NCBI RefSeq assembly: GCF_017876675.1
Contig: NZ_JAGIOI010000001.1
Location: 930,001 to 994,000, forward strand
Direction of reading: 5' to 3'
Origin: Arthrobacter stackebrandtii
Lineage (GTDB): Bacteria > Actinomycetota > Actinomycetes > Actinomycetales > Micrococcaceae
DNA: 64,000 nucleotides
Part shown: piece after piece, positions 12,344-28,945 of the stretch
How the letters are laid out: each line of letters starts with the position of its first letter
Position numbering within the stretch: the stretch's first letter is position 1
Program-made: the position numbers and the translations under genes
The notes under the pieces: generated by a model
Seen by the model: the letters and a program-made list of their open reading frames with translations, nothing else
The model's database searches: none
Told to the model about the DNA's origin: nothing

Positions 12344-13294
12344 CTACGAACGATAAGTCTCCTCGAAAAGTTCTGCTCGTGTCGGCGGGTCTGCTCCAGG
12401 TCGCGAGACAGTGATTGCTGCGGATCTGGCGCAATCAGCAATGAGTTCGGAAATCTCTGTGCTTCCCATCGAGGAAATTGCCTGGCTCACGCGGCTGCCG
12501 AACGCTCCCTTGGCGATCAATGCATCGATAAGGGTGCCCATGAAGGTGTCGCCGGCGCCTACTGTGTCGACGACGATTGTGGGTACGGCGGGTACTCGGA
12601 TTGTGGCGCTGCGGGACATTGCCAGCGCTCCGTTGGCTCCCGAAGTGATTACGACGAGCTCGGGCCCTGACGCGAGCCACCGGTGCGCAACCAATTCCAT
12701 ATCTTCGCCCGGATATAGCCAAGCGATGTCTTCGTCGCTGGCTTTCACAACGTCGACCTTGTTCACGAGCGACAGCACTCGTTGCCGGGTTTCGTCGGGG
12801 TTCTCCACCAGACTCGGGCGAATGTTCGGGTCGAAGGTGATCAAGGCCTTGTCGCGGCAGTTGTCCACCAAAACTGTCACTGCATCGGCGCCTGGCTGAA
12901 GGGTTGCCGCAATTGAACCGACGTGGAGCATGTCAATCGCACAAACCTCCTCAACGGCCAGGCTCCAGTCGATGTCGAACTCATAGTCAGCCGCACCGTC
13001 GGCATCGAGGTTCGCAGTTGCGGTTGACGTGCGTGCAGTCCGTTGCGCATGAACTGTGACACCGGAAGCCTGCAGCCAGGCCGTGGCATCGAGGCCCCGT
13101 TGGTCCTCGCCCAAGCTGGTCAGCAGTTGCGGACGTCTGCCGAGCCGGCCAAGGGTCAGGGCCACGTTGGCACAGCTGCCCCCTGGTCTCTCCTCGATGG
13201 TGCCATCATGCTGGTGCAAGATGTCGGTGAGTGTCTCGCCGACGACGAGAACTCTGGGTTCACCGATTTTGTCTTGCTGCTGGTATCTGGCCAC
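12344..13294 (-). CDS. PfkB-family sugar kinase, probable fructokinase
   Basis: A 316-residue cytoplasmic ribokinase/PfkB kinase. The first signature GGSCANVALTLGRLG and the second DTVGAGDTFMGTL, with the catalytic Asp in the GAGD loop, are intact. I start it at the GTG at 13294 (VARYQQQDKIGEPRVLVVGE) because GAAAGGG lies upstream and the residues encoded further upstream are the out-of-frame end of the neighbouring gene. As the last gene of the fructan operon, it most likely phosphorylates fructose released by the GH32 enzymes. Other PfkB substrates cannot be excluded. Confidence 0.87.
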   Translation of the reverse strand: MARYQQQDKIGEPRVLVVGETLTDILHQHDGTIEERPGGSCANVALTLGRLGRRPQLLTSLGEDQRGLDATAWLQASGVTVHAQRTARTSTATANLDADGAADYEFDIDWSLAVEEVCAIDMLHVGSIAATLQPGADAVTVLVDNCRDKALITFDPNIRPSLVENPDETRQRVLSLVNKVDVVKASDEDIAWLYPGEDMELVAHRWLASGPELVVITSGANGALAMSRSATIRVPAVPTIVVDTVGAGDTFMGTLIDALIAKGAFGSRVSQAISSMGSTEISELIADCARSAAITVSRPGADPPTRAELFEETYRS

Positions 13295-13328
13295 TTTTAG
13301 GCCCTTTCGTGACGGATTGCGTGGAAGG

Positions 13329-13362
13329 CACCATCCCCGGACTGATTCATCCGGGGATGGTG
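13329..13362 (-). terminator. hairpin between levan fructotransferase-like gene and fructokinase
   Basis: CACCATCCCCGGA (13329-13341) and its exact complement (13350-13362) enclose an 8-base loop in the 77-base gap. No T run follows on the minus strand, so it may be a leaky terminator or an RNA-processing site that sets kinase level below enzyme level. Confidence 0.5.
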
Positions 13363-13371
13363 TCTGGTATC

Positions 13372-14931
13372 TCAGTTGCTCGCGTCGAGTTCCCGGATGG
13401 TGATGCCGCTGAACGTCGCGGTCCCGCCGTCGGAGTAGAACGATATCCCGGTGTCGCCATCTGCAAAGTGAACTTGCTGGGAGAGCACTGTGTGCCCGGC
13501 GTTGACGAACACTTCGACGCTTTGGGTGTCCACGAAGATTCTCAGATGCATTGAGCGGGCGTTCGCATCGATCGGAGCACATGCCCGGGAGTACGGTGCG
13601 AGTTTGTATCCGTTGACGTCTGAGGGGGCCCGGTCAACATAGATCTCGTTGCCGTATTTTCCAATGTTGGTGTGGCGGGTGCCGTCGGCAGACCTCCCCA
13701 CCGAGACGCCAACATTGGTGGCGGTGTCCCAGCTGATGTCCAGTTCAAGCTCATATGCCCGTCCGGTGTACGGCAGGACAAAGCTTCCGTTGACGTTTTG
13801 TCCAGGAATCGGTGTTGTTGCCCCTGCGTAGTTGGCCAGGGATGCCACCGGGCTGCTCAGCAAGCTGTACGCTCCGCCGGGTTGGCGTTCCAGGCGAAGC
13901 TCTCGTGTGATGGAATTCTGGCCGTTGTATCCGTCACTGGCGTCCGTGGGTACGTCGCGAGCTGCGTACTTCCAGTTGTTCATCCACGCGATGGCCAAGC
14001 GCCGTGTCTCAGGCGCGTCCTTCGATGGCCAGGTGACGGCAGCATACCAGTCCCAGCCCCAGTCCAGCCACTGCGGGGTGAGGTCCTGGGCTGTGAACTG
14101 CTCCCCGTCCCACGTTCCCATCCAGTAGGCGTAGGTCATGGGCAACCCAATGCTGTAGGCGTCCATGCTGGCTCCGAGGATCCAGTGGCGGGTACCGTCG
14201 CCAGCGGTCATTTCGAACAGGTCGGGGCATTCAATGCCGCCAAGTGCGTGGTTGGGGTAGTCGAAGTTGAGCTTGAGGGTCCAATCGTGCAAGTTGCTTG
14301 AGGTGTAGAAGCTTGCATAGCGTGCCCGCCCAATGACGCACACCCATTCATCGCGTGCGCCGTCCCAGTGAATCTTGGGGTCCCGAAACCACTCCGCGTT
14401 TTCGATCTCCGCCGGAGTTGTTGCCGTTCGCCCGTCGGTGTTGACAATCACGGGGTTGGGCAGGGCCGCGAAGGTAAATCCGCCGTCGGTGGACCAGTAG
14501 AGGTATTGCTCCTGGTACTTGCGGATACCGTCAGTTGGTTTCGTGGCCAGGGCGATGACTGCACCGGCCCCGTAGTCGGCAGTGTTGGCGGTGTCGACCA
14601 CTGCGCACCCGGACCAAACCGGGAAGTCCGGTTCCAGCGGCATGACGGTGCCGTGGTGGGTGAAGGACACACCGTCGAGGGTGGTGGCATGGTCCCAACC
14701 TCCTGGGCCGTTGTTCTGGCCAGAATGCAGGTAATAAAGTTGGTAGGCGCCATTGGTGGTGACTGGTCGTTGCGGGTCACAGAGCCAGCCTGAGGGTGGT
14801 GTCATGTGGTACTTGGCCCGGAGGGAGGTTTCTGCCCGAGCGGCAGTGGGCAGGCCTGCGCTCATCAACAGTGCGAGGGCACCGGTTCCTGCGCCTTGCA
14901 AGACAGTTCGGCGGGAGATTTCGGGGATCAT
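13372..14931 (-). CDS. Tat-secreted GH32 enzyme, probable levan fructotransferase
   Basis: A 519-residue exported enzyme. The Tat signal is EISRRTVLQGAG with cleavage near ARAE. The GH32 five-blade propeller has nucleophile Asp52 in GWLCDPQRP (in place of the usual NDPNG), the RDP triad at 183-185 (WFRDPKIHW) and acid/base Glu234 in GGIECPDLF; a beta-sandwich domain follows from about residue 360. The WLCDPQRP sequence, the secretion signal and the length match my recollection of Arthrobacter levan fructotransferase, which cuts levan to difructose anhydride IV rather than fructose. A plain exo- or endo-levanase is the alternative. GAAAGGAAG precedes the ATG. It sits in an operon with importer genes for a small fructan product. 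Confidence 0.85.
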   Translation of the reverse strand: MIPEISRRTVLQGAGTGALALLMSAGLPTAARAETSLRAKYHMTPPSGWLCDPQRPVTTNGAYQLYYLHSGQNNGPGGWDHATTLDGVSFTHHGTVMPLEPDFPVWSGCAVVDTANTADYGAGAVIALATKPTDGIRKYQEQYLYWSTDGGFTFAALPNPVIVNTDGRTATTPAEIENAEWFRDPKIHWDGARDEWVCVIGRARYASFYTSSNLHDWTLKLNFDYPNHALGGIECPDLFEMTAGDGTRHWILGASMDAYSIGLPMTYAYWMGTWDGEQFTAQDLTPQWLDWGWDWYAAVTWPSKDAPETRRLAIAWMNNWKYAARDVPTDASDGYNGQNSITRELRLERQPGGAYSLLSSPVASLANYAGATTPIPGQNVNGSFVLPYTGRAYELELDISWDTATNVGVSVGRSADGTRHTNIGKYGNEIYVDRAPSDVNGYKLAPYSRACAPIDANARSMHLRIFVDTQSVEVFVNAGHTVLSQQVHFADGDTGISFYSDGGTATFSGITIRELDASN

Positions 14932-15014
14932 AGTTGCTTCCTTTCAAAATCTGGCGGGCGCGTGGGAGTGCCCGCCAGGGTCATTTTGGCAGTTGCAGTA
15001 CAGGTGCATGTGGA

Positions 15015-16484
15015 TCAGAGAAGGGCTGTGGCCCGCACAGGCTGGGCGGAGGGTACCGGTGCCTGCGTTTCGGGCACGTCACAACTTCGCGACGAAATTC
15101 TGCCGGGCTGGCTGCTCTCAAGGCGAGCAGTTACTGGGCCCGTTCCGAGGACAACTAGGTTGGATGCGCTTATTTCGCCGTCATTGACGAAGAGTTCAAG
15201 CAGCGGCCCGTCAAGGCTTAACAGGAGTTGTGCTGGCCCTGAGGAGTCGAGGGCAACGGTGCAGGTGGCTGGGAAGTGGGGATGCACAGCGGCCACGGCG
15301 TCGCCCTGTCGGGTGATGCTCAAGATGCCAGTTTCGGGAGAGTGTTCAATGACGACTTTGGCTTCGGCTTCGCCGTTAAGGGTGACTCGAAATGTTCCGG
15401 TTGTGCTTGGATCCCAACGAAGCTCCATAAACGAATGGCCACTCAGGACTGCCTCAAAGGGTTGCGCAAGGAGCCACTCAGCTGCTGGAGCGGCGGATAA
15501 GAACCATTCCTGGACGAATTGTGGCGGTTGTTGGATGAGACGCGGTGAGCCGGCACTGGTGCGCAGTGACAACCGCCGGGGCAACGACATTGCTCCCCGC
15601 CACGGAGCCGTGGGGATGGCACCGGCATAGCTCCAGTTACTCATCCACCCGAGCATGATCTTTTCTCCGGCAGGAGCGTTATCAAAGGTCACTCCTGCAT
15701 AGAAGTCCCGCCCATGGTCAAGCCTGGTCAGTTCGTTTGAGTCTGCGGTGAATGTTCTCCCATCGAAGTCCCCAATCACATAGCTCATTGAGGACCCCTT
15801 CGGATCGGGGTTGTCGCCGACGGGGTTGGTGCTGATCAGTAACACCCAGCGGATGTTGCCAGTGTCTCCGTCCACGGGAAGAGGGATGAGATCCGGGCAT
15901 TCCCAGACAACTCCGTCCGCTCCGAGCGGACCAAACGTACTCTCGTGTTCCCACGTGCGCAGGTCAGTCGATGAGTAGAAGAGCACCTGTCTGTCGTCTG
16001 CCTCAACGGTGAGCATGATCCAGTGATTATTCCCTTCCCCATCTGCACATTGGATCACTTTGGGGTCACGAAATGCGCTGGTCCCGCGGTCCAAGACAGG
16101 GTTTTCCGGGTCCAGCTCCCAAGTGAAACCGCCGTCAACGCTCGTAGCCCTGGATTGTGCTTGGTGCTCGTCTTCGTAGGCACTCGTGTAATAGGCAGTA
16201 AGGAGGGGCCCGCCGTCGGATTGGCTGGCCACGATGGAGCCCGAAAAAATCTGTTCCCTATCTCGATAGGGCAGCGCTACGGAGTGCTCGGTCCAATGCT
16301 GCAAATCTGCGCTGGTGGCGTGGCCCCAGCTCATGTTCCCCCAGTCAGATCCCTCGGGGTTGTACTGGTAGTAGAGATGCCAGAGACCGCGGTCGTAGAC
16401 AAGCCCGTTGGGGTCATTCATCCAGTTGCGTTGCGGCGTGAAATGGAATAATGGCCTCGGCATCAGGCCGTCTGAGTGGTTCAT
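15015..16484 (-). CDS. cytoplasmic GH32 beta-fructosidase
   Basis: A 489-residue canonical GH32 enzyme without signal peptide: nucleophile Asp24 in WMNDPNGLVY, FSGSIV at 80-85, Arg139-Asp140 in FRDPKV, acid/base Glu195 in WECPDLI, then the C-terminal beta-sandwich from about residue 330. It would hydrolyse beta-fructosides such as levanbiose, inulobiose or sucrose inside the cell and give fructose to the kinase downstream. The ATG at 16484 has AAGGA seven bases upstream, overlapping the stop of the LacI gene, so it is clearly in the same operon. Exact linkage preference cannot be read from sequence. Confidence 0.9.
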   Translation of the reverse strand: MNHSDGLMPRPLFHFTPQRNWMNDPNGLVYDRGLWHLYYQYNPEGSDWGNMSWGHATSADLQHWTEHSVALPYRDREQIFSGSIVASQSDGGPLLTAYYTSAYEDEHQAQSRATSVDGGFTWELDPENPVLDRGTSAFRDPKVIQCADGEGNNHWIMLTVEADDRQVLFYSSTDLRTWEHESTFGPLGADGVVWECPDLIPLPVDGDTGNIRWVLLISTNPVGDNPDPKGSSMSYVIGDFDGRTFTADSNELTRLDHGRDFYAGVTFDNAPAGEKIMLGWMSNWSYAGAIPTAPWRGAMSLPRRLSLRTSAGSPRLIQQPPQFVQEWFLSAAPAAEWLLAQPFEAVLSGHSFMELRWDPSTTGTFRVTLNGEAEAKVVIEHSPETGILSITRQGDAVAAVHPHFPATCTVALDSSGPAQLLLSLDGPLLELFVNDGEISASNLVVLGTGPVTARLESSQPGRISSRSCDVPETQAPVPSAQPVRATALL

Positions 16485-16494
16485 TGATGTGTCC

Positions 16495-17514
16495 TTAGAT
16501 AGAGTGCCGCAGAATCGGCGGACAGGCGATGAGCGTGGGCACGGCGCCAGAGGAACTTTCGAGGCCAAGGAGCATCCTGACCCCTGCCGCACCCAGCTCG
16601 TAGTGGGGAAGGGCAACTGTCGATAACGGCGGGCGAAGATGGGCCGCAATGACATCCTGGTTGTCAAAACCCATGACAGCCATGTCTTCCGGGATCCGCA
16701 GTCCTTTTTCACGCAGTCCGTCGTAGAGACCCATGGCCACCCGGTCATTGTGGCAGAACACCGCGCTCGCGCCGGATGCGATGATATCCGTGGTGGAGAC
16801 GAAACCGCCTTCTTGCTCTGGGGTCGCGAGAAAAACCAGCGATTCGTCGAAGTCAATGCCGGCGGCATCCAGTGCGGCCCGATACCCAGCTAGTCGTCCT
16901 GATTGGGCTGGTGACGGTGTGGTTGTGTTGATGAAAGCGATCCGGCGATGGCCGGCGGCTAGCAGTCCCTCTGTCGCGCTTCGGCCGCCTTGTTCCTCGT
17001 CTGGGACGACGGAGGCAAGCCCGCTTCCAGATGCAAAGCAATCCACGAGAACCGCATCCGTTTGTTGAAGCATGGGCGGAACAGTAATCTCGCGGTGATA
17101 CCAGGTCGAATACAGGATTCCCTGCACCTGGTGTTCAAGCATCATGGCAATTGCTTCGTCTTCGGCAGCTTGATTGCCATCCGTATTGGCAACGAGCAAC
17201 ACATAACCGTTCTTCCAGGCCTCATCCTGTGCACCGTGAATAATCTGGCCGGCAAAGGGAGTTGTTGCAATTGCATCTGCGACGAGTCCAATGAACCGAG
17301 ACGTGCCTTGTGAGAGGGTTTTTGCCAGCATATTTGGTCGATACGCAAGCTCGGCGACAGCGTTGTGCACCCTCTGCCGCGCTTCGTCTCCGATTCGGGC
17401 ACCGGGCTTGTCATTGATCACGTTCGACACTGTTGCCACGGATACCCCGGCAGCTTTTGCCACATCACGCATCGTCACCACATGGGTGCCCCTGCCAGGC
17501 TCTAGAGTGCTCAT
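16495..17514 (-). CDS. LacI-family transcriptional regulator of the fructan operon
   Basis: A 339-residue LacI/GalR regulator with HTH VTMRDVAKAAGVSVATVSNVIN (13-34), hinge YRPNMLAKTLSQ and a sugar-sensing domain ending FHND- and MGFDNQDVIAAHLRPPLSTV-type motifs. Its ATG overlaps the TGA of the upstream permease gene (ATGA at 17511-17514), so it is made together with the importer. The likely targets are the two palindromic sites at 22284-22301 and 22327-22344 in front of the operon, which would make it autoregulatory. Confidence 0.92.
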   Translation of the reverse strand: MSTLEPGRGTHVVTMRDVAKAAGVSVATVSNVINDKPGARIGDEARQRVHNAVAELAYRPNMLAKTLSQGTSRFIGLVADAIATTPFAGQIIHGAQDEAWKNGYVLLVANTDGNQAAEDEAIAMMLEHQVQGILYSTWYHREITVPPMLQQTDAVLVDCFASGSGLASVVPDEEQGGRSATEGLLAAGHRRIAFINTTTPSPAQSGRLAGYRAALDAAGIDFDESLVFLATPEQEGGFVSTTDIIASGASAVFCHNDRVAMGLYDGLREKGLRIPEDMAVMGFDNQDVIAAHLRPPLSTVALPHYELGAAGVRMLLGLESSSGAVPTLIACPPILRHSI

Positions 17515-18419
17515 CCCTTGGTTCCTCCACTCTCGAGGCCACTGATCATGGCCTTATTTAACACGAGGAATACCAGCAGCAACGGCGTCACTGTCACGCA
17601 GACGGCAGCAAACGTCGCCGTCCAATCCGTGTTTCCCATCGCGCCAATGTAATTTTGCAAGCCTAGTGGGATTGTCTTGAGCCCATCGGAGAGCACAAAG
17701 GTGTTGGCAAAAATAAAGTCGTTCCAGATGAAGATGCTGTTCACCAGAACCACGGTAATGATGGTGTTTACCGACAGGGGGAAGGTAATCTTGGAGAAAA
17801 TTCTGAACGGACCGGCCCCGTCCAACGAGGCTGCCTCATACATTTCCCGTGGAATGTATTCGTAAAAAGAGCTGAACAGGTATACGGCCATGGGCAATGC
17901 GAAAGCGGCCAGCGGGATAATCATGGACATGTGCGTATCCAAGAGGCCAATTTTGGAGTAGTCGATGAACAACGGAACCAAGGCGATCTGCACCGGAACA
18001 ATGATTCCCAGCAAGAACAGCGCACGCACCACACCGCTAAAGCGGAAGCCGAGGACCTGCAGTGCAAAGGCTGCCATCATCCCGGCCACAACAATCAGCA
18101 GACTCGAACCGAGGGTCACGATGAGGCTGTTGAGGATGTTCAGCCCTAGGTTTCCCGCGGAGAAGGCCCTCGAGTAGTTTTCCAGTGTGAACTGTGTGGG
18201 AATAGCGAAGGGGTTTCCGGCGGCAAAGTCAGTGGCTGTGCGAAAGCTGGTCAGGACGAGCCAGAGCATGGGATAGACCTGCACGACGACAACCACCACC
18301 ACTGTTGCGCTCAGGAGCCAACGCTGGACTCGAAGCCGCGTGGGCTTCTTCCTCCGTGCCGGTTCGCGTGGTGTCGCAGGAGCTGTTTTGGTGGGCGGGG
18401 TGAGAACTGAGGCGCTCAT
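17511..18419 (-). CDS. sugar ABC transporter permease, MalG type (fructan operon)
   Basis: A 302-residue CUT1 permease with six TM segments (first LLSATVVVVVVVQVYPMLWL) and the EAA loop MYEAASLDGAGPFRIFSKITFP. The ATG at 18419 overlaps the TGA of the preceding permease gene as ATGA, and its own stop overlaps the LacI start the same way. An in-frame start 18 codons further up would lie inside the neighbour and is less likely. Confidence 0.92.
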   Translation of the reverse strand: MSASVLTPPTKTAPATPREPARRKKPTRLRVQRWLLSATVVVVVVVQVYPMLWLVLTSFRTATDFAAGNPFAIPTQFTLENYSRAFSAGNLGLNILNSLIVTLGSSLLIVVAGMMAAFALQVLGFRFSGVVRALFLLGIIVPVQIALVPLFIDYSKIGLLDTHMSMIIPLAAFALPMAVYLFSSFYEYIPREMYEAASLDGAGPFRIFSKITFPLSVNTIITVVLVNSIFIWNDFIFANTFVLSDGLKTIPLGLQNYIGAMGNTDWTATFAAVCVTVTPLLLVFLVLNKAMISGLESGGTKG

Positions 18420-19390
18420 GATTTGTCCCTTCGGCGAAGGAGTAGGAAGATCAGGCCCACGGCAACCAGGCACTCAACGACGATGAAGACGGAGATTGCG
18501 CTGGCGTAGCCGTAGTCGGTGTGGACGAATGCTGTCTTGTACATGTACGTGGTCAGCAGTTCTGAGGACTGCCCGGGCCCGCCATTGGTGAGCAGGTAGG
18601 GAATGTCGAAGCCGCGCAGGGCGAACGTGGTTGCCATGATGGTGGTGGTGATCCAGACCGGGCGGATGTGGGGGAAGCGGATGCGCCAGAATACTTGCCA
18701 CCAGGAGGCTCCATCCAGGCGAGCCGCCTCTTCCAATTCCTTAGGTACGGAGAGCAGTGCCGCGTAGATGATCAGCATGTAGAGGCCCGTGAAACGCCAG
18801 CCTTCTGGAATGGAAACAGCTGCCAGTACCGTGTTTACGTTGGAGAGCCATGCGGTTTGCAGTTGCTCCAACCCTACCCAGGCCAGGACTTGGTTGAACA
18901 AGCCAACCGGCTCCAGCGAGTAGATCCGTTGGAAGAGCAAAGCGATGGCGACGGTGGAGATTACAGCAGGAAGCAGGTAGAGGGTTTTCACCAGTTCGCG
19001 TGCGCGGGTGATTCCCGTCAGGAGCCCTGCAACGGCGAGCGCGCCGCCAAGTTGGAGCACCAGGCAGATGGCCAGGTAGCCCAGGGCGTTGCCGAATGCG
19101 GTCCAGAAGACGTCGTCGCGGGTGAACATCTTGGCGTAGTTATCCAGACCAATGAACTTCATGGCCGTGATGCCGTCCCAGCGGAAGAAGCTCAGGAACA
19201 GTGATTGAACAATGGGGAAGAGGACGGCCAGACCGTAGAGGAGCAGCGGCGGGACCAGGAATACTGCCACTGAGAGTCCGGACCGGCCAGGAAGCATGGT
19301 CCCGTAATCTGACTTTCTTTTCTTGGCGGGTTTGCCCCGCCCGGCCCGGGGGGCGAGCTGTGCTCCGGGGCTTTGCGTTGTACTAGCCAT
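18416..19390 (-). CDS. sugar ABC transporter permease, MalF type (fructan operon)
   Basis: A 324-residue CUT1 permease. After a basic N-terminus (RAGRGKPAKKRKSDYG), TM1 is LSVAVFLVPPLLLYGLAVLF; the EAA loop is LEEAARLDGASWWQVFWRIRFP. I start it at the ATG at 19390 (MASTTQSPG), with GGAG seven bases before it inside the end of the binding-protein gene, so the two genes overlap by 8 bases and are translationally coupled. Partner of the MalG-type permease that follows. Confidence 0.92.
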   Translation of the reverse strand: MASTTQSPGAQLAPRAGRGKPAKKRKSDYGTMLPGRSGLSVAVFLVPPLLLYGLAVLFPIVQSLFLSFFRWDGITAMKFIGLDNYAKMFTRDDVFWTAFGNALGYLAICLVLQLGGALAVAGLLTGITRARELVKTLYLLPAVISTVAIALLFQRIYSLEPVGLFNQVLAWVGLEQLQTAWLSNVNTVLAAVSIPEGWRFTGLYMLIIYAALLSVPKELEEAARLDGASWWQVFWRIRFPHIRPVWITTTIMATTFALRGFDIPYLLTNGGPGQSSELLTTYMYKTAFVHTDYGYASAISVFIVVECLVAVGLIFLLLRRRDKS

Positions 19391-20720: not shown

Positions 20721-20795
20721 TGAGAGAATCTCCATTGATTGTTCTGCGGATAGTGGTACTTATGGCTGGGTAACGGTGGGTGCGGAAGAGATGAG

Positions 20796-22265
20796 TTAGG
20801 AAATGGTGGCGAGGAGTCCGACGTCGGCGGTGTCCCCTATGGGTTCTCCACGTGTGGTGAGCGAGAACTCGGTGACTGTAGTGGTTCCTTCCCCGACGAA
20901 CACACCCAACAGGCCTGCCTGGTGGTCATAGATGCGGGTGCTGAGTACGGTCGTGTTATCAACGGTGGCGATGCAAATATCACCATCAACGATGACTTCC
21001 AGCTCGTGCTCTCCCGGCTCAAGAGACACTGCCCGTTCCAGTTCGACGGCATAGGGCACGTCCCCTGAAATCTGCCACTGTTCTGTGCCTGTGGAGGTGC
21101 GGGGCCAGCGGTCAAAGACCAAACGTCCGCGCTGCGGCTCCAATCGCAGCGTGTAGCCGGTGTCCCCGTCCTTGCTGGCGCGCAGCACCACGCCGCATTC
21201 GCGGGTATCTTTGGTGATGTCGAACCGGGCTACGGCCCGGAAGGTGGAACCAGGGTCCTCGGGAAGGAGGGCATCGGCGTAGCCATCGGAGGCGTTGAGA
21301 AGTGTTCCGGCGAGGTCTTCAGGCAGCGGGTTGGTGAAGGTTTCGCGGAATTCTTCCGTGGGATGGAAGGCGAGTGTGCCATCCTGGCGCTGTTCGGCCT
21401 CGAGCACGGACATGGTGCCCGCCCACTGCCAGGCTCCGGCGTCGTTAGAATTTTCTCGGGACGCTATCCAGCCAAAGAAGAAGCGGCGATTATCGCGAGC
21501 TGCAGACTTTGCCGCGTAGAAAGCTCGGCCGTCGAGTGAGTCATATTCCGGGACAATCCAGGGACCGGAGAGGCTGCGTGCCATACGGTACCTGGTGGTG
21601 AATGAATCACTGAATTCCGAGTACACCATGTACCACCACTGGCCCCATTTGAAGACTTCGGGGCATTCATGAGCGATGTAGCGTCGTGGGTTCCAAAACG
21701 GCGGGGCGGCTTCCCACATGGAGAGATCCCGCGAGGTGCACTGGGCAATGACGCCGCGCCGACGTTCCGGGCCGTGACCGTGGCGAGCGGTGATCAGCAT
21801 GCGCCACAGCTTGGCGTCCTCGTCCCAGAAGACGAAAGGGTCACGCCAATCCCCGGTTTCGTAGCCCTCAGTGGCCCCGAAGGTGTCTGCTTCGTGGCGC
21901 TGCCAGGATTCCATGCCGTCATGGCTGGTGGCGTGCATAACCAGTTGCAGGGCTCGGCCGTCAACGCCTGTATTGGCAGGATTCTGACCGGTGTAGAAGA
22001 GGTGATGGACTCCTTTGGGATCCAGCACGATGCTGCCGGTGTAAATATTGAAGTCCGGTGCTCCCGGCCCCCCCGAGGCAACTTCCTCCCCAGTTTCTTG
22101 GAATTGCACGAGGTCCTTCGTCACTACACGGTGCCAGGGCATCCCCTCTTTGGGGGTCTTCCTGGACTCGTACAAGTAGAAGAGATGGAACTCTCCGTCC
22201 TGTTCCCACGGGATGATGTCACCCACCCATGCGTGGTCCGGCTGGTACAAGCCTCGATGATTCAT
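20796..22265 (-). CDS. atypical GH32 hydrolase, candidate difructose anhydride or fructobiose hydrolase
   Basis: A 489-residue cytoplasmic protein that aligns in layout with GH32: Asp16 in HAWVGDIIPW at the nucleophile position, YTGSIVLDP (75-83) as the FSGS-like strand, Arg141-Asp142 in GDWRDPFVFW and Glu200 in HECPEVFKW as acid/base, then a beta-sandwich domain from about residue 310. The nucleophile loop lacks the Asn-Asp-Pro-Asn-Gly of ordinary invertases, so substrate placement should differ. It is the first gene of the operon, with GAGG six bases ahead of the ATG, followed by an importer. GH43 or another clan-J-like family is a possible reassignment. Confidence 0.78.
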   Translation of the reverse strand: MNHRGLYQPDHAWVGDIIPWEQDGEFHLFYLYESRKTPKEGMPWHRVVTKDLVQFQETGEEVASGGPGAPDFNIYTGSIVLDPKGVHHLFYTGQNPANTGVDGRALQLVMHATSHDGMESWQRHEADTFGATEGYETGDWRDPFVFWDEDAKLWRMLITARHGHGPERRRGVIAQCTSRDLSMWEAAPPFWNPRRYIAHECPEVFKWGQWWYMVYSEFSDSFTTRYRMARSLSGPWIVPEYDSLDGRAFYAAKSAARDNRRFFFGWIASRENSNDAGAWQWAGTMSVLEAEQRQDGTLAFHPTEEFRETFTNPLPEDLAGTLLNASDGYADALLPEDPGSTFRAVARFDITKDTRECGVVLRASKDGDTGYTLRLEPQRGRLVFDRWPRTSTGTEQWQISGDVPYAVELERAVSLEPGEHELEVIVDGDICIATVDNTTVLSTRIYDHQAGLLGVFVGEGTTTVTEFSLTTRGEPIGDTADVGLLATIS

Positions 22266-22283: not shown

Positions 22284-22344
22284 TGGTTAAGCGGTTATTC
22301 AAGACCATAATCGGACTTGCAAGTCATGGTCAAGCGGTTAACCA
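22284..22344 (-). promoter_or_regulatory. paired LacI-type operators of the fructan operon
   Basis: Two 18-base near-palindromes, TGGTTAAGCGGTTATTCA (22284-22301) and TGGTCAAGCGGTTAACCA (22327-22344), share the core AAGCGGTTA around a central CG, the usual LacI-family pattern. They are 43 bases apart (about four helical turns) and flank the predicted promoter. Confidence 0.7.
22304..22333 (-). promoter_or_regulatory. candidate promoter of the fructan operon
   Basis: Read on the minus strand, TTGACC (22333-22328), 18 bases, and TATGGT (22309-22304) fit a sigma-70-like promoter. One operator covers the -35 box and the other lies just after the -10 box, a standard repression layout. Confidence 0.5.
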
Positions 22345-22630
22345 AATATTTCTCGAAAATGTTATTACCTGTCTTATGTCTCCCGGACGACTCGGACGGC
22401 CGCACTGGGTCAGGGTGGATCCACAACGGAAACCGCTCAGGGAGGGTACATGGAAGGCCACGACACAGCGGAAGTCTTGGCTAGCAGGCACAAAGGCGCT
22501 CATGAGAAGCAGTAGTGCACGAAGCAGTGTTCCTATTGACGCAAAGGCCACGACTGGGTCACGAGCGACCAGTACCAACGACAATCTTCAGGCCCACCCT
22601 GCCCGAGACGAATTGAACGAGCCGCACCGA

Positions 22631-22652
22631 GCTGGCGCCCTTCGGCGCCAGC
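22631..22652. terminator. GC-rich hairpin in intergenic region
   Basis: GCTGGCGCC and GGCGCCAGC form a perfect 9-bp stem with a CTTC tetraloop-like turn. No gene ends beside it on either strand; it is just upstream of repeat copy 2 and may belong to the element. Confidence 0.45.
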
Positions 22653-22717
22653 AAGGATGCATTTACCCAAGCCGAGGCAGCATTCGATGGGCGGGCCTCA
22701 CTCATGGGACATTCGAA

Positions 22718-23100
22718 CCGAAACAGCCTGCGCTGAACGATCCAAGCTAGGACCGAAGGTAAATACCAACGAAAACTGTCCCCGCAGGTCAGAGCTTTTT
22801 CAGCGCTATAAACCCATCGTCAATTATCAACGCTTATGAACCCCGCTGTCCCGTCAGGGGTCCAGTTCACACCGCCAATGGGTTTTTTGACCTGTTTCTG
22901 CATAGTGAGCTTGCAACAACAAGTGATACTAAACGCTCTCCCCTTTGCACTGATTGGGATGAGTTTTGTATGACGTGGTGGGAACTCCCGCCCTACGGCT
23001 TCGCGGCCTCAAGCATCGCCAATCAGCCATCACTTCCGCCCTCACCAGAACAGCGAAGCCGCAACTTCAACCCACCCTAAACTCACACCATTATTTTACC
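22718..23100 (+). repeat. dispersed repeat, copy 2 of 4
   Basis: The copy shares with copy 3 the blocks CGAACCGAAACAGC, GTAAATACCAAC and CCCCGCTGTCCCGTCAGG, then TTTTGACCTGTTTCT, AAGTGATACTAAA, CTTTGCACTGATT and the core ATGAGTTTTGTATGACG at 22959-22975, ending in a GCATCGCCAATCAGCC block. The part TTCACACCGCCAATGGG resembles the repeated terminal motif of IS21-family elements, but no transposase is present. It may be a miniature or decayed element. Confidence 0.75.
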
Positions 23101-23396
23101 GGTAATGGCAGCATACGGCCGAGTATCAGCTGGGCTGACAACCAACCACTAGCACTTTGGCATTGCGAACGCCCATTCCGCTGCCCGTCGCTCGGGCCGC
23201 AGGCGTGTGGATGCCCACCGAACCAAAGGGTATCCAGGATGCTATGGCAGGAAACATCCGCATGCCCGATTCCGCATCACTACCCCAAAACAAGACGGCA
23301 CCATCTGATCAACAACCATTTCAGGCATGGGACAAGGCCCTAATACCACCTGACGAACGTTACTCAATTGCGTAACGATTGAGTAACGTCATTTGC
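23101..23396. other. intergenic, no gene seen
   Basis: No frame with recognisable features was found between repeat copy 2 and the operator region of the next LacI gene. A GTTACTCAATTGCGTAACG / GATTGAGTAACG stretch at 23360-23388 contains short mirrored GTTAC...GTAAC motifs that may be part of regulation. Confidence 0.4.
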
Positions 23397-23462
23397 GTCA
23401 ACTCGTTTGACGAGATCAAGGTTACATCAATCGTTTGCAGTCAAGAGTCAAACGTTTACATA
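23397..23462 (+). promoter_or_regulatory. operator cluster and candidate promoter before LacI gene
   Basis: Three sites share a CGTTTG/CGTTTA core: around 23397-23414 (GTCAACTCGTTTGACGAG), around 23425-23440, and GTCAAACGTTTACA at 23447-23460, whose centre AAACGTTT is a perfect palindrome. TTGCAG (23435-23440) with TACATA (23457-23462), 16 bases apart, could be the promoter, with the last operator covering the -10 box. This pattern suggests autoregulation by the LacI gene that follows. Confidence 0.5.
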
Positions 23463-23485
23463 GACCTTGAAGGAGCGTGCACGTC

Positions 23486-24523
23486 ATGTCACTTGTGACA
23501 CTGAAAGACATTGCCATCGAAGTTGGTGTGTCAATCTCCGCAGTGTCACTCGTTCTGAACGGCCGCGGTGAAGGCCGAGTTAATGCAAAGGTCGCTGCCC
23601 GGATCCAGACTGTTGCCGATGATCTTGGCTACGTCCCAAACCTCCTTGCCCGTGGTCTCAAGACTAAACACTCGCTAACCATTGGATTGTTGGCAGACGG
23701 GGTGGCATCAACCTCCTTTGCTGGTTCTATGGTTACAGGCGCCCAGACAGCTGCGGCCGAGTTCGGCTATCTTCTAATGCTTATAGACACGGTGGGCATG
23801 ACCGGGCTGGAAACTCCGGCGGTCAAGGCACTCCTACAGAGGAATATCGAAGGGCTCATCGTGGCTCCCGATTACCACAGTCATGTAAAGCTGCCACGGG
23901 TACCACGATCGATGCCGATTGTTGTACTCGACGGACGGCCCGCTCAGGGAGAGGCCGACGCTGATTGGGTTGTGCCGGATGAGGTAGGAGGCGCTGCTAC
24001 CGCAACACGTCGCCTCCTTCAGGCCGGACACCGTCGTATTGCCATGTGCAACTTGGATGATGAGCGTTACATCGCGTCATCACTTCGCAGGCAGGGCTAC
24101 GAGGAGGCGATCCGTGATGCTGGGCTCGTACCCGATCCGTCACTGCACGTGACTTGTGCGGAGCTTAGTGCCGAGGCCGCGCGTGCCATGGCGCTGGAGC
24201 TCCTTCAAAGGGCAGATCGACCCACAGCTGTTTTTTGCTTTTCGGACAGATTGGCTTTTGGGGTGTATCAGGCCGCAGCCCAAATAGGGCTCAGCATCCC
24301 CGAGGACCTGTCCATCGTCGGCTTTGACAACCATCCCTTCGTGGCTGAAAGTCTCCTACCGGGTCTTACAACCATCCAACTGCCACACTATGCCATGGGC
24401 GATTGGGCGGCCCGTTGCCTAATCCGACGCAGCCAACACAGCCAAGAATCCATTCAGCCTGTTTCGTACCTTGCTGCCTGCCCACTCGTGGAACGCGGTT
24501 CAGTCGCACCACCAGCTGCCTGA
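23486..24523 (+). CDS. LacI-family transcriptional regulator (GH172 locus)
   Basis: A 345-residue LacI/GalR regulator with HTH VTLKDIAIEVGVSISAVSLVLN (4-25), hinge YVPNLLARGLKT and sensor domain (IGLLADGVASTSFAGSM, VFCFSDRLAFGVYQAA, IVGFDNHPFVAE). The ATG at 23486 with GGAG ten bases upstream is chosen over a GTG that sits too close to that site. Its sequence is related in style to the fructan-operon LacI (SFAG, LPHYA/ELG features), which fits a ligand of similar type. It heads an operon-like set of ABC importer and GH172 genes. Confidence 0.92.
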   Translation: MSLVTLKDIAIEVGVSISAVSLVLNGRGEGRVNAKVAARIQTVADDLGYVPNLLARGLKTKHSLTIGLLADGVASTSFAGSMVTGAQTAAAEFGYLLMLIDTVGMTGLETPAVKALLQRNIEGLIVAPDYHSHVKLPRVPRSMPIVVLDGRPAQGEADADWVVPDEVGGAATATRRLLQAGHRRIAMCNLDDERYIASSLRRQGYEEAIRDAGLVPDPSLHVTCAELSAEAARAMALELLQRADRPTAVFCFSDRLAFGVYQAAAQIGLSIPEDLSIVGFDNHPFVAESLLPGLTTIQLPHYAMGDWAARCLIRRSQHSQESIQPVSYLAACPLVERGSVAPPAA

Positions 24524-24632
24524 CAAAACATCTCCATTCACAAACCCCTAACTCTTTCATAGCGAGCGCTATGAACCTTCGCCGAGCCCATAAACGGGAC
24601 TGCCGGCAACTACCCAGAGAGGACCTCGCATC

Positions 24633-25931
24633 ATGCGATCCATTTCCCGCCGTCAGGCCCTTGGAGGCCTTGGCGCACTCAGCCTCACAGCACTGACACT
24701 TACCGCTTGCAAAGCAGCGGGAGGTGGCAGCGACAAATTCACCATCCTGCAATATGAAGATCCCACCACTCCGCAGGGCCAGGGCTGGCAAAAGGCAGTC
24801 GAATTGTTCAAGGCCAAGCATCCAGACGTCACAGTCGACGTCCAGCAAACAAGCTTCGATGCTTTCAGGCAAAATGCCAAGATTCTCCTGAGCGGCAACA
24901 CTGTCCCGGACGTAGTTGAGTTCAATAAGGGAAACGCCGATGGCGGGCAGCTTGCCTCTCAGGGACTGCTGGAGCCCCTCAATGATGCCGTGACCAAGTT
25001 CGGCTGGGATAAGAAGGTCAGCGGTTCGATGGCTGCCTTCGCGAAATATGACGAGGAAGGCAAAGCCGGCTCCGGTGACTGGTACGGAATTCCCAACGTC
25101 GGGGAATACGTCTACTTCTACTACAACAAGACCAAGTTCGCCAAGGCTGGCATTTCTGAGATTCCCACCGATCTCGCCTCCTTTGAGGACGCGATGGATA
25201 AGTTGCAAGCTGTCGGAGAGTTGCCCATTTCCAGTTCCGCCAGCACAAGCCAGGGATTCAACCAAATGTGGATCTGGTACTCCCTGGTATCGGCGGAAGC
25301 AAGCCGCAAGGATATCGACGATTTCATGTTTATTCGGGACCAGGTCAACTTCAATTCAGGCGCTTGGAAGGACGGAACCGAGCGTTTTCAGCAATGGATA
25401 GATAAGGGCTATATCGGCAGCCAGCTCGGCGGATTGTCCTTCGAACAGGCCACTGTCAACTTCTTGTCTGAAAAGGCGGCCATGCTCCCTTGGAATAACG
25501 GCATGTTCGCCCGTATCCGCGAAGACGCCTCTTTCGACTGGGGATTCTTCATCATGCCAGGCGCCCAACTTTCCATGGGATCATCCGGTCATCTTTGGGG
25601 AGTTCCCGCAAAATCGAAGAACAAAGATCTCGCCTACGACTGGATCGAGACCACGCTAAGTCCAGAAGTCCAGAACCTGATAGGTCAGAAAGGCGGACTA
25701 CCACTAGCTGGGGACACCGAAACCATTTCCGATCCACTCACAAAAGAGTTGACCGAAAGGTTCGACGAAGTCGTCAAGGCTGACACTCTGTCCTTCTACC
25801 CCGACTACCCCGTGCCAGGATTCTTGGACTTCATTCAAAACCATATGCAGGCGATGTCGAACAAGAACGAATCGGCCGACGAGTACTTGGACGCACTCCA
25901 AGAGTTCTACGACAAAGGCACCAAGGACTAG
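24633..25931 (+). CDS. sugar-binding lipoprotein of ABC importer (GH172 locus)
   Basis: A 432-residue SBP family 1 protein. The N-terminus MRSISRRQALGGLGALSLTALTLTACKAA combines a Tat-like twin arginine with lipobox LTAC. Typical binding-protein traits follow (FTILQYEDPTTPQGQGWQKAVELF, NTVPDVVEFNKGN, YGIPNVGEYVYFYYNKTKF, AAMLPWNNGMF). GAGAGGACC precedes the ATG. It feeds the two permeases downstream; the ligand is inferred to be a difructose anhydride or related furanoside because of the GH172 gene at the operon end. Confidence 0.9.
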   Translation: MRSISRRQALGGLGALSLTALTLTACKAAGGGSDKFTILQYEDPTTPQGQGWQKAVELFKAKHPDVTVDVQQTSFDAFRQNAKILLSGNTVPDVVEFNKGNADGGQLASQGLLEPLNDAVTKFGWDKKVSGSMAAFAKYDEEGKAGSGDWYGIPNVGEYVYFYYNKTKFAKAGISEIPTDLASFEDAMDKLQAVGELPISSSASTSQGFNQMWIWYSLVSAEASRKDIDDFMFIRDQVNFNSGAWKDGTERFQQWIDKGYIGSQLGGLSFEQATVNFLSEKAAMLPWNNGMFARIREDASFDWGFFIMPGAQLSMGSSGHLWGVPAKSKNKDLAYDWIETTLSPEVQNLIGQKGGLPLAGDTETISDPLTKELTERFDEVVKADTLSFYPDYPVPGFLDFIQNHMQAMSNKNESADEYLDALQEFYDKGTKD

Positions 25932-25941
25932 CACCGCCAGC

Positions 25942-25972
25942 GTCGGGGTGGAACTCCCCTCCTTGCCCCGAC
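25942..25972 (+). terminator. hairpin after binding-protein gene
   Basis: GTCGGGG (25942-25948) pairs with CCCCGAC (25966-25972). It lies between the binding-protein and permease genes without a T run, as often seen where binding protein is made in excess. Confidence 0.45.
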
Positions 25973-26028
25973 TACCCACTCAATCTGGACACTCTAACGA
26001 ACTAACGAACTAACGATTGGATTCTGCC

Positions 26029-26934
26029 GTGAGCAAAGGACTGGCGCCAACATTGCGCCGACCGAGCGGCTACTGGCTATACCTGTTGCCGATCTTCATC
26101 GGCTTCCTGGCCGTGGTCGCCGTCCCATTCGGGACCAACATCTATTTCTCGTTCTTCCGGTGGAAGGGCGGGGCAGCGCCCATGCATTGGAATGGCCTCA
26201 ACAACTACTCCACGCTGCTTGCCGATACCGAATTTTGGAACTCTCTGCGTAATTCGATCTTCATGGTCATCGCCATCGTCATCATTCCCACCGTGATCGG
26301 CCTCCTGCTGGCGGCACTATTGACAGACACTATCGGCCGGCGCTTTGGGCCACGGATAGCCAGCTTCTTGAGGGCGACCTACTACCTCCCACAAATCCTT
26401 CCCATAGCAGTCGCAGGCTTCATGTGGAGCTGGATTCTAGACCCTGCGAATGGCGCCATCAACACTCTCCTGCACTCACTTGGCATGGATGGCCCAGACT
26501 GGCTGGGAAATCCCGATCTGGCCATCTACTCAGTCATGCTAATGCTCATCTGGCTGCAAATCGGGTACCCCCTAGTAATTTTCATGGCGGCACTTTCGAG
26601 AGTGGATCCAGAACTCTACGAGGCAGCGGCCCTGGACGGTGCGGGTAAGTGGCGACAATTCGTCGCCATCTCCATGCCAACCATCCGACCGGAAACGTTC
26701 ATTGTGGTGCTGACAGCCACCGTGGCAGCCCTGAAAGTCTTTGCACCGATCCTGATACTCACCGGCGGAGGACCAGAAGGATCCACCGTAGTGCCGTCGT
26801 TCTATGCCTACCGCAACTTTTTTGAACTCTCACAAGTAGGCTACGGCTCCGCAATTTCCACCGTAATGGCCCTAGTTATCTTCGCCATAGCAGCGCTCAT
26901 GCTGTGGTGGCAACGTAGGCAGGAAATAAGATGA
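26029..26934 (+). CDS. sugar ABC transporter permease, MalF type (GH172 locus)
   Basis: A 301-residue CUT1 permease with TM1 YWLYLLPIFIGFLAVVAVPF and EAA loop LYEAAALDGAGKWRQFVAISMP. The start is uncertain: GTG at 26029 (VSKGLAPTLRR) fits the usual N-terminal length, a TTG 12 bases upstream is also possible, and neither has a strong ribosome site. A short tandem of AACGAACT lies just upstream (25995-26014). It overlaps the next gene by an ATGA. Confidence 0.9.
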   Translation: MSKGLAPTLRRPSGYWLYLLPIFIGFLAVVAVPFGTNIYFSFFRWKGGAAPMHWNGLNNYSTLLADTEFWNSLRNSIFMVIAIVIIPTVIGLLLAALLTDTIGRRFGPRIASFLRATYYLPQILPIAVAGFMWSWILDPANGAINTLLHSLGMDGPDWLGNPDLAIYSVMLMLIWLQIGYPLVIFMAALSRVDPELYEAAALDGAGKWRQFVAISMPTIRPETFIVVLTATVAALKVFAPILILTGGGPEGSTVVPSFYAYRNFFELSQVGYGSAISTVMALVIFAIAALMLWWQRRQEIR

Positions 26935-27812
26935 TTACCACCAAATTCGTCAATGGTGTTCGAACCAAGCACAAAGGCCGCCACCCCAAACATCGGACAG
27001 TTAATGAATGGCTACTTCTAGCCGTCGCTGTACTCTGCGGCATAGCTGTTTTTGCACCCTTCGGGCTAATTATTCTCAATGCCTTCAAGTCCTCCAAAGA
27101 TTATTCAAGCAACGGACCGCTAAGTTGGCCCACATCAATTTCGTTTGATGCCTTCGTGGACTATCTGGGGCGGGTCGACTTTCCCCAAGCGCTCTGGAAC
27201 TCCCTGCTGATTTCCACACTTGTGGCAGTCATCGCTGTCACTCTTTCGCTAATGAGTGCTTACCCGCTAGGAGTCGGGCGAGTGAAATCAAGCGGAATGG
27301 TCCTGGCCGTCCTGCTGGTTGCCACCATGCTTCCTCACGAATCCTTGATCTACCCGCTCTTCTACGGCGCACAGGCCACAGGAACTTTCAACACCGTGTG
27401 GAGCGTCATCATAGTATTCTCCGTCCTGCAAGCAGCCTACGGAACCTACCTGCTGTCCAGCGTCATGGGAGCCATCCCCAAAGAACTAATCGAAGCGGCA
27501 CAACTTGACGGCGCCGGCCGATGGCAAATCCTATGGAAAGTGCTGGTTCCAATCCTAAAACCAAGCCTCTCCGTACTTGTGGTGTTCTTCTTCATCTGGA
27601 CCTGGAACGAATTCTACATACCCGTAGTACTGCTATCCGACCAATCCTCCCAAACAATACCCATCGCCCTCGCCACCCTCCGCGGACAACACAACATCGA
27701 CATCACAGTACTCAACGCAGGCTCCCTCCTGTCATTAGTACCCACCCTTGTCTTTTTCCTCCTCTTCCAACGAACCCTGGTGCGCGGCGTCGCAGCAGGG
27801 GCAGTCAAATAG
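26931..27812 (+). CDS. sugar ABC transporter permease, MalG type (GH172 locus)
   Basis: A 293-residue CUT1 permease. TM1 is EWLLLAVAVLCGIAVFAPFG and the EAA loop LIEAAQLDGAGRWQILWKVLVP. Its ATG overlaps the TGA of the preceding permease (26931-26934), and the GH172 gene starts 41 bases after its stop. No ATPase gene is present in the locus. Confidence 0.92.
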   Translation: MITTKFVNGVRTKHKGRHPKHRTVNEWLLLAVAVLCGIAVFAPFGLIILNAFKSSKDYSSNGPLSWPTSISFDAFVDYLGRVDFPQALWNSLLISTLVAVIAVTLSLMSAYPLGVGRVKSSGMVLAVLLVATMLPHESLIYPLFYGAQATGTFNTVWSVIIVFSVLQAAYGTYLLSSVMGAIPKELIEAAQLDGAGRWQILWKVLVPILKPSLSVLVVFFFIWTWNEFYIPVVLLSDQSSQTIPIALATLRGQHNIDITVLNAGSLLSLVPTLVFFLLFQRTLVRGVAAGAVK

Positions 27813-27853
27813 CTTTCACGACCAATTCCCCATCAACGAAAGGCAACATCATC

Positions 27854-28945
27854 ATGACCATCTCATGGGCCATCCAGCCCCCAGGCGTCAGCAGCCGATC
27901 CATCAACGCTGAAAACTTCACTGGAGAGTCAGGCCAGGGCGCCAAAGCTTCCTCCAAGCTGGGCCCAGGACGAAAAGGCTCCGCATGGGTCAACATCCCA
28001 CCAGGTGAAACAGCAATCCTGGCCGACATTAAAGGGACAGGAGTCATCCGGCACATTTGGATGACAGTAACGGACAAGACAGACCACGGACCTTTCGTGC
28101 TTCGCGACCTTGTACTTCGCATGTACTGGGACGGTTCAGAAACTCCCAGCGTCGAAGTCCCTCTGGGCGACTTCTTCTGCAACGGATTTGCGCAACGAGC
28201 TCTTGTCACCTCCGAACCCATCGTCGTAGCACCCACAGGCGGAATGAACAGCTTCATTCCGATGCCATTCCGAGATGGCGCCCGCATCACCGTCGAGAAC
28301 CAGCACGGAGGAGAACTGACACATTTCTTCTACCAGATCGACTACACACTGGGCGACGACGTAGCCGACGCGATGTATTTCCACGCCCAGTGGCGCCGCT
28401 CTAACGGAAACCTCCCACTCGGAGAAGATCATGTAATTCTGGACGGTGTAGAAGGCAAGGGCACCTACCTAGGTACCTACGTAGGCATCGCCTCTCTACA
28501 GCGCTATTGGTGGGGGGAAGGAGAGGTCAAATTCTATGTAGATGACGACACAGAAAACCCCACGCTTTGTAGCACTGGGCTTGAGGACTACGCAGGAGGC
28601 GCCTGGGCTTTCCAAGACGAACTACGCAGCGACCCCGAACCCAAAGTCCTCACATTCAACGCACCTTATTTCGGCTACCCATTCCACGAGACAGTCGATC
28701 GAACCAAGGGCGCGCCCTTCCACCCCGGGATGCCCCCCATGCATGGCGTCTACCGTTGGCACATCCCCGATCCCATCTACTTCCAAGAGCGACTTCGGGT
28801 AACTGTTCAACAGATCGGAACCTGGGACCACGGAGGACTGTTCGAACGCAGCGACGACATCAGTAGCACCGCCTACTGGTACCAGGACAGCGTGAACCAG
28901 GATCTTCCTGAACTCCTTCCCGCCGAACAACGGTGGCCACGGTAG
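27854..28945 (+). CDS. GH172 (DUF2961) furanosidase, candidate difructose dianhydride hydrolase
   Basis: A 363-residue cytoplasmic protein that matches the DUF2961 family along its length: RSINAENFTGE (15-25), GTGVIRHIWMTV (61-72), VEVPLGDFFCNGF (100-112), YFHAQWRR (175-182), VEGKGTYLGTYVG (199-211), GEGEVKFYVDDD (221-232) and STGLEDYAGGAW (240-251). DUF2961 was renamed GH172 after members were shown to act as difructose dianhydride I synthase/hydrolase and as arabinofuranosidases. The acids at Glu222 or Glu224 and Glu244 are the likely catalytic pair. GAAAGG precedes the ATG. With its own importer and near a levan fructotransferase-like gene, opening of an imported difructose anhydride is the best guess. 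Known members favour alpha-linked substrates, so another furanoside remains possible. Confidence 0.86.
   Translation: MTISWAIQPPGVSSRSINAENFTGESGQGAKASSKLGPGRKGSAWVNIPPGETAILADIKGTGVIRHIWMTVTDKTDHGPFVLRDLVLRMYWDGSETPSVEVPLGDFFCNGFAQRALVTSEPIVVAPTGGMNSFIPMPFRDGARITVENQHGGELTHFFYQIDYTLGDDVADAMYFHAQWRRSNGNLPLGEDHVILDGVEGKGTYLGTYVGIASLQRYWWGEGEVKFYVDDDTENPTLCSTGLEDYAGGAWAFQDELRSDPEPKVLTFNAPYFGYPFHETVDRTKGAPFHPGMPPMHGVYRWHIPDPIYFQERLRVTVQQIGTWDHGGLFERSDDISSTAYWYQDSVNQDLPELLPAEQRWPR

Follow-up and report, generated by a model that had tools for sequence, protein, structure and literature searches.

The locus described here lies in a 64,000-nucleotide window of the Arthrobacter stackebrandtii chromosome (bases 930001–994000 of a 4.43 Mb single-contig genome). 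One of its two operons, operon 1, appears to encode a self-contained three-stage pathway in which levan would be converted outside the cell to difructose anhydride IV (DFA IV), imported in this cyclic form and opened in the cytoplasm by GH32L, an atypical member of glycoside hydrolase family GH32. A neighboring operon that carries a GH172 gene would be a separate system, and we put the probability of this overall reading at roughly 0.7. The gene content of operon 1 fits a three-stage unit: a secreted maker, an importer and a candidate intracellular opener form one regulated set, with the importer ATPase encoded elsewhere.

All of the reported genes are intact open reading frames, spread over 16.6 kb, and the family matches of the locus proteins were far beyond chance. 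Operon 1 occupies the minus strand (12344–22265) and is transcribed in the order GH32L, SBP1, PermA1, PermB1, LacI1, exo-GH32, LftA and PfkB kinase. Its intergenic gaps are short or negative, as in one operon. The GH172 operon (plus strand, 23477–28945) runs LacI2, SBP2, PermA2, PermB2, GH172. The features, numbered by window position, are as follows.

20796–22265, minus strand: GH32L, cytoplasmic GH32 protein, candidate DFA IV opener and first gene of operon 1 (GH32N, E = 1e-30; fold closest to the endolevanase BT1760).
19383–20735, minus strand: SBP1, sugar-binding protein of the importer, with DFA IV as its presumed ligand (SBP_bac_1).
About 18416–19390, minus strand: PermA1, importer permease (BPD_transp_1); start moved from 19459 on the basis of a ribosome-binding site seen by eye.
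About 17511–18419, minus strand: PermB1, importer permease (BPD_transp_1); start moved from 18473.
16495–17514, minus strand: LacI1, regulator of operon 1 (LacI and Peripla_BP_3).
15015–16484, minus strand: exo-GH32, cytoplasmic, putative levanbiose-splitting enzyme (GH32N, E = 1e-86; nearest PDB structure the exo-inulinase 8I12, at 43% identity); better start ATG 16484.
13372–14931, minus strand: LftA, secreted levan fructotransferase by homology (84% identity to PDB 4FFF, LftA clade; SRR signal motif by eye).
12344–13294, minus strand: PfkB-type sugar kinase, likely a fructokinase (PfkB, E = 3.5e-40); better start GTG 13294.
22327–22341, minus strand: first LacI1 operator-like box, TTAACCGCTTGACCA.
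22284–22298, minus strand: second LacI1 operator-like box, ATAACCGCTTAACCA.
23447–23459, plus strand: operator-like box of the GH172 operon, GTCAAACGTTTAC.
23477–24523, plus strand: LacI2, in the separate GH172 operon.
24633–25931, plus strand: SBP2.
26017–26934, plus strand: PermA2.
26931–27812, plus strand: PermB2.
27854–28945, plus strand: GH172 protein of the separate operon (DUF2961, E = 1e-86), predicted to act on some α-furanoside.

SBP2, PermA2 and PermB2 were named from similarity to relatives and from gene position. The first-pass annotation of this DNA had listed a secreted GH32 with a twin-arginine (Tat) signal and a WLCDPQRP nucleophile loop, two cytoplasmic GH32-type enzymes, a GH172 enzyme and two LacI regulators within 17 kb, and this inventory is borne out. 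The secreted protein carries the loop in an intact frame, with a twin-arginine-type signal, SRRTVLQ, discernible by eye at its N terminus, and the two other GH32 proteins (15015–16484 and 20796–22265) have no visible signal peptide. The fructokinase that it named is a PfkB sugar kinase, whose top NCBIfam match is a fructokinase model but at a score well under the cut-off (122 versus 450 bits). Its two full ATP-binding cassette (ABC) sugar importers do comprise four permeases and two binding proteins, but neither operon contains an ATPase gene. The single OB_MalK match in the genome (G000:C1:1023895–1024038) falls in a 400-codon frame about 72 kb from the locus and is probably the shared ATPase of the sugar importers; a remote gene of this sort is in keeping with what we take to be a shared importer ATPase of the MsiK kind. 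The operons had also been described as facing one another. They are in fact divergent, back to back, with about 1.2 kb between them.

Strong homology identifies the secreted GH32 as a levan fructotransferase, which would be DFA IV-forming. It shares 84% identity over 477 residues with the crystallized LftA of Arthrobacter ureafaciens (PDB 4FFF), compared with 39% for the endolevanase LevB1. Phylogeny, proposed in the first-pass annotation as a check on this protein, agrees: in a 50-row GH32 tree it groups with 4FFF and orthologues in one clade (support 100/99), and LevB1 groups with 15 endolevanase-like rows in another (98/84). Grouping with plain levanases, which that annotation had named as a refuting result, was thus not observed. 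The twin arginine is near-invariant in a 15-row alignment. In one genome (G216) the LftA-clade protein lies in a far longer frame of about 830 codons, with 53% identity (L079:6041–8533).

The distribution of GH32L follows that of LftA. Matches to LftA at E ≤ 1e-80 were found in 35 of 295 genomes drawn evenly from one family. Fifteen of these genomes have a match of at least 54% identity, always within the LftA clade; 20 hold only a 42–45% relative, and the 15 of those 20 that were taken into the tree all fell in the endolevanase-like clade. GH32L (E ≤ 1e-30) occurs in 18 of the 295: in every one of the 15 LftA-clade genomes, in 1 of the 20 with only an endolevanase-like relative (G054), and in 2 of the 260 others (G123 and G162). 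The corresponding Fisher p values (1e-22 for 15/15 versus 3/280 and 5e-9 for 15/15 versus 1/20) are, we stress, too small because the genomes are related. The contrast between the two clades of secreted enzyme is nevertheless the telling point.

GH32L and LftA share one locus in all 15 LftA-clade genomes, as do SBP1, PermA1, PermB1 and LacI1. LftA itself is placed downstream on the same strand (eight loci), divergently (five), upstream on the same strand (one) or upstream on the opposite strand, separated by a LacI gene (one), and the block of GH32L, binding protein, two permeases and LacI is kept across all four placements. The exo-GH32 gene lies inside the operon at three loci; at five, a distant exo-GH32/kinase pair (36–44% identity to the window exo-GH32) sits on the other strand, some 1.5–2.6 kb beyond LftA, and at seven no exo-GH32 was found in the stretch examined. 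Owing to this patchiness, GH32L is the sole GH32 besides LftA that is common to all 15 loci.

A wider scan used a collection with one genome per species; we took the best 80 of 237 GH32L relatives, so the fractions describe close relatives. These come from Microbacterium, Plantibacter, Agromyces, Arthrobacter, Pseudarthrobacter, Paenarthrobacter, Cellulosimicrobium, Oerskovia, Sanguibacter, Nocardioides, Cryobacterium and other genera, including one labeled Planococcus. SBP1 and PermA1 each adjoin GH32L in 78 of the 80 loci (both SBP1 exceptions are at contig ends), and PermB1 and LacI1 in 75, the exceptions again lying at contig ends. An exo-GH32 relative (at least 40% identity) is near GH32L in 36, and LftA in 50; a genome-wide search of the other 30 adds two LftA genes at 70% identity or more, giving 52 of 80. 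A Cellulosimicrobium locus (L090), whose LftA is 94% identical to 4FFF, has the gene order GH32L-SBP1-PermA1-PermB1-LacI1-exo-GH32-LftA, matching the window.

GH32L carries both GH32N and GH32C domains above cut-off and begins directly in the first blade, without a visible signal peptide. Its catalytic triad (D16, D142 and E200) is invariant in an 18-sequence alignment, and across the wider loci the RDP and ECP motifs are present in 80 of 80 and VGD in 79 (L114 is the exception). A predicted model (mean predicted local distance difference test score, pLDDT, of 83) finds its best structural match in the endolevanase BT1760 (Z = 41.8, root-mean-square deviation 2.5, 444 residues, 27% identity), ahead of the next matches, LftA included, at Z = 34–35. 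In the GH32 tree BT1760 and GH32L share one large group, but BT1760 sits on a long branch. Two residues through which BT1760 makes contacts, Gln239 and Arg244, correspond to F218 and to a gap in GH32L when the alignment is read by eye; F218 is invariant in the 18 sequences, and these replacements imply that the pocket differs from that of BT1760. DFA IV is di-β-fructofuranose 2,6′:6,2′, a β,β-linked ring (as given in the part of PMC8605356 cited here), and because its bonds are β-2,6 a retaining GH32 of β-2,6 ancestry would be a chemically natural opener. On linkage and homology, GH32L is the strongest candidate for opening DFA IV inside the cell.

Two operator-like boxes (22327–22341 and 22284–22298) flank a promoter-like element, TTGACC-18-TATGGT, recognized by eye upstream of GH32L. 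The exact box pattern occurs at only two sites in the whole genome, both upstream of GH32L; the six positions that match it with two mismatches are in other parts of the genome and not close to the GH172 operon. In 93 of 98 loci a member of this box class stands at most 220 bp upstream of GH32L, whereas shuffles that kept single-base composition only predict about 0.3 such loci; some of these promoter regions represent one strain from two collections (L068/L099, L073/L122, L075/L140 and L076/L151). A second box, 40–50 bp further, was matched by the same pattern in 52 of the 98; the pattern overlooks some second boxes, including the window's own. Further boxes are often found in the shared region at loci with a divergent LftA.

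Together these observations suggest the following route. Exported LftA would convert extracellular levan to DFA IV, and SBP1, PermA1 and PermB1, energized by an ATPase encoded elsewhere, would import it. Cytoplasmic GH32L, as a retaining enzyme apparently of the endolevanase-like clade, could then cut one β-2,6 ring bond to yield levanbiose, which exo-GH32 would split to fructose for phosphorylation to fructose 6-phosphate by the PfkB kinase. At loci that lack exo-GH32, both bonds may be cut by GH32L, or a GH32 encoded elsewhere in the genome may assist. LacI1 would repress the operon through the two putative operators around the promoter. The first-pass annotation had proposed that levan is made into DFA IV outside, imported and opened inside, and, as a fallback, that the atypical GH32 and not GH172 opens the levan product; homology and linkage favor both.

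The GH172 operon appears to be an independent cassette of importer and hydrolase that would serve an α-linked furanoside, perhaps a different difructose anhydride. Palindromes of the TCAA-CG-TTGA type lie upstream of LacI2 in the window and at L082, L173, L174 and L179 and, by eye, are unlike the operon 1 boxes; none was seen in the stretch read at L175, perhaps because the LacI2 start is wrong. A single match of the GTCAAACGTTTAC type is no rarer than chance within the window, and its weight comes from the related palindromes at other loci. The cassette recurs in other families without levan genes nearby. From an order sample of 396 genomes, 29 had a GH172 at E ≤ 1e-85 and 20 stretches were examined: the set LacI2-SBP2-PermA2-PermB2-GH172 was found in G680, G349, G353 and G629, and G473 has it with a LacI of another type. 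G289 has the whole operon, with a GH172 that is 84% identical, and has neither LftA nor GH32L. Among the six genomes with a near-orthologous GH172 operon (loci L082, L173, L174, L175 and L179, and L177 with the different LacI type), GH32L (E ≤ 1e-20) occurs in G473 only, as a 54% relative about 870 kb away on the same contig. None of the 14 other LftA-clade genomes has a GH172 of the window's clade; two of them, G216 and G217, have the type represented by alphaFFase1, the characterized difructose anhydride I (DFA I) hydrolase (PDB 7V1V).

An alternative that retains real weight, though we lean against it, is that this cassette serves D-arabinofuranosides and not any fructose anhydride. The window GH172 is nearer to the exo-α-D-arabinofuranosidase 8IC8 (46% identity) than to 7V1V (34%), and in a 42-row tree, for which the program warns of long branches, a 100/100 branch separates it from the 7V1V group. 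It also stands outside the 12-row clade that contains 8IC8 (100/99), so that in this tree it belongs to the clade of neither characterized enzyme. Twenty loci of the wider GH172 clade were examined (L082, L173–L189, L097 and L102), an uneven draw in that L097 and L102 had been reached by way of GH32L. At five (L097, L102, L176, L180 and L186) GH172 has GH32L-type or fructokinase-like genes in its neighborhood, which makes an α-fructofuranoside, and hence another anhydride, a possible substrate. At L177 an exo-GH32 relative lies about 8 kb from GH172, and none of these three kinds of gene was found near GH172 at the other 14. D-arabinofuranosides may be substrates as well.

At two of these loci the association with GH32 is direct. 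A paralogue of GH32L, GH32L2 (34–35% identity to GH32L), occurs in Microbacterium (L097:18451–21149) and Rathayibacter (L102:1207–3725), followed immediately by a GH172 gene with 56–59% identity to that of the window and preceded by a peptide-type solute-binding protein, beside the GH32L operon. From its composition the GH32L2-GH172 cassette, which includes a peptide-type importer, looks like a further anhydride or α/β-fructoside pathway. Separately, four loci in other Micrococcaceae (L169–L172) combine GH172 with importer permeases and GH32 genes. The GH172 proteins at L170–L172 are 55–56% identical to alphaFFase1, a fructokinase-like gene lies near GH172 at L169, L171 and L172, and all four are probable DFA I-type loci to judge from their genes.

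Several points weigh against DFA IV opening by GH32L. Relatedness among the genomes inflates its co-occurrence with LftA. Genomes with LftA also encode other GH32 proteins: total matches number 3 to 10, among which some are fragments of a single gene, and the present genome has four. The opener could be one of these. In BT1760 the levan chain is bent to fit the pocket; the enzyme cleaves levantriose, leaves levanbiose intact and probably requires at least two minus subsites (PMC6560043); a two-fructose ring is thus not its kind of substrate, which argues that its activity cannot simply be carried over to a cyclic two-fructose sugar. The chief objection to a strict DFA IV reading is that 28 of the 80 GH32L genomes lack LftA at 70% identity or more: 12 have a 37–47% relative and 16 have none at E ≤ 1e-60, some being drafts or metagenome bins. 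Such genomes may scavenge DFA IV, or they may use other levan fragments. Possible scavengers are therefore not rare, and the earlier suggestion that the cyclic dimer is one that few competitors can use is weakened.

These same facts feed the main alternative for operon 1, in which GH32L and its importer handle levanbiose or short levan oligosaccharides released by LftA or by other organisms, and the opening of DFA IV falls to exo-GH32 or a different GH32, or the anhydride goes unused. GH32L does resemble an endolevanase that cuts levan oligomers, some of the genomes without LftA have an endolevanase-like gene, and other GH32 genes are at hand. However, endolevanase-like enzymes would also release levan oligosaccharides, and GH32L tracks the LftA clade and not these genes; moreover, the exo-GH32 that would take over the opening was absent from the stretch examined at nearly half of the LftA-clade loci. 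We consider this explanation unlikely.

The first-pass proposal of one levan-to-anhydride pathway split over both operons, with GH172 opening an anhydride, is highly improbable: the operons adjoin in this genome, GH172 genes lie in a second cassette beside the GH32L operon at L097 and L102, and GH172 (E ≤ 1e-30) occurs in 3 of the 15 genomes of the LftA clade and in 9 of the remaining 280 (Fisher p = 0.018, two of the three being alphaFFase1-type), but the operons differ in boxes and regulators, five of the six other genomes with a near-orthologous GH172 operon lack GH32L, and the GH172 activities described (in the part of PMC8605356 cited) are on α-furanosides, whereas DFA IV is β,β-linked. 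Boxes, distribution and linkage together led us to reject GH172 as a member of the levan pathway.

Returning to the DFA IV pathway of operon 1, a bolder extension seems to us evenly balanced. GH32L may hydrolyze DFA IV, being a GH32 of endolevanase-like type adapted to open a cyclic dimer in the cytoplasm and a third type of anhydride opener beside GH91 and GH172; it would then mark a widespread actinobacterial levan guild of producers (LftA with GH32L) and scavengers (GH32L without LftA), with GH32L2-GH172 forming a mixed α/β anhydride pathway.

Other features of the window were noted in passing. Two Transposase_29-type transposase genes lie at 29937–32192 (minus strand) and 55830–58094 (plus strand), the first starting about 1 kb beyond the GH172 gene. 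The interval 3260–11589 holds a LacI regulator, importer genes, a GH36 α-galactosidase and, following them, a protein that combines a ricin-type lectin domain with a marginal match to GH16. Genes for an FAD oxidoreductase, a 2-oxoadipate dioxygenase/decarboxylase, an aldehyde dehydrogenase, an amino-acid dehydrogenase and an FAD/iron-sulfur oxidase (35115–43498, plus strand) probably belong to lysine-type catabolism. A permease, a SIS-domain protein and a PfkB kinase are encoded consecutively at 47158–51073 (minus strand), perhaps as a fructosamine-type cassette.

Three-stage pathways are known for difructose anhydride III (DFA III), through GH91, and have been proposed for DFA I, through GH91 and GH172 (PMC8605356; PMC11538131, each cited in part), the latter in Streptomyces davawensis; the account of three-stage pathways in the cited part of PMC8605356 makes no mention of one for DFA IV. 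Degradation of DFA IV was already known: PMC6828762 cites work from 1999 on how intestinal microorganisms metabolize it, and also describes DFA IV as made with levan fructotransferase and of commercial interest. In the open-access library searched we recognized no report of a DFA IV hydrolase gene or of an operon built around levan fructotransferase; the subscription literature lies largely beyond that scope, and the absence is unproven. GH32L provides one named candidate for the opener, along with a transporter and a regulator. If the assignment is true, the strategy of a ring made outside and opened inside reaches levan, through a different enzyme family. The division between producers and apparent scavengers makes the idea of a private sugar testable, and DFA IV could build up in strains that lack GH32L or its importer.

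Comparison with characterized systems places these components as follows. For the window GH172, 8IC8 is the nearest solved relative, although the two fall in separate clades and the importer cassette is a different context. With alphaFFase1, the DFA I synthase/hydrolase of Bifidobacterium dentium, it shares the family and alignable WWGEG and EDY motifs, yet the clade differs. The LftA of A. ureafaciens (EC 4.2.2.16, GH32; PDB 4FFF–4FFI) and that of the window share their clade and the WLCDPQRP loop as well as most of their sequence; the enzyme itself shows no notable difference, and what is new is the surrounding operon. GH32L has its closest fold in BT1760 of Bacteroides thetaiotaomicron (GH32; PDB 6R3R and 6R3U), with which it shares the VGD nucleophile motif; it differs in the two contact residues and is cytoplasmic to judge from its start, and the β-2,6 specificity is a feature of BT1760, the relative. 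The nearest parallel to the pathway as a whole is the DFA III pathway of Arthrobacter and Blautia (a GH91 fructotransferase in Arthrobacter, an ABC importer, a GH91 DFA-IIIase and a GH32), in which an ABC importer brings in the anhydride, which is opened intracellularly before a GH32 completes its breakdown (PMC8605356; PMC11538131, in the parts cited). Operon 1 would share ABC uptake, intracellular opening and the GH32 finish. It contains no GH91 gene, and the genome has one weak Beta_helix match, under cut-off (GH91 was sought through Beta_helix only, a model whose reach to GH91 is uncertain). Operon 1 would use levan in place of inulin and DFA IV in place of DFA III, and both its maker and its candidate opener belong to GH32.

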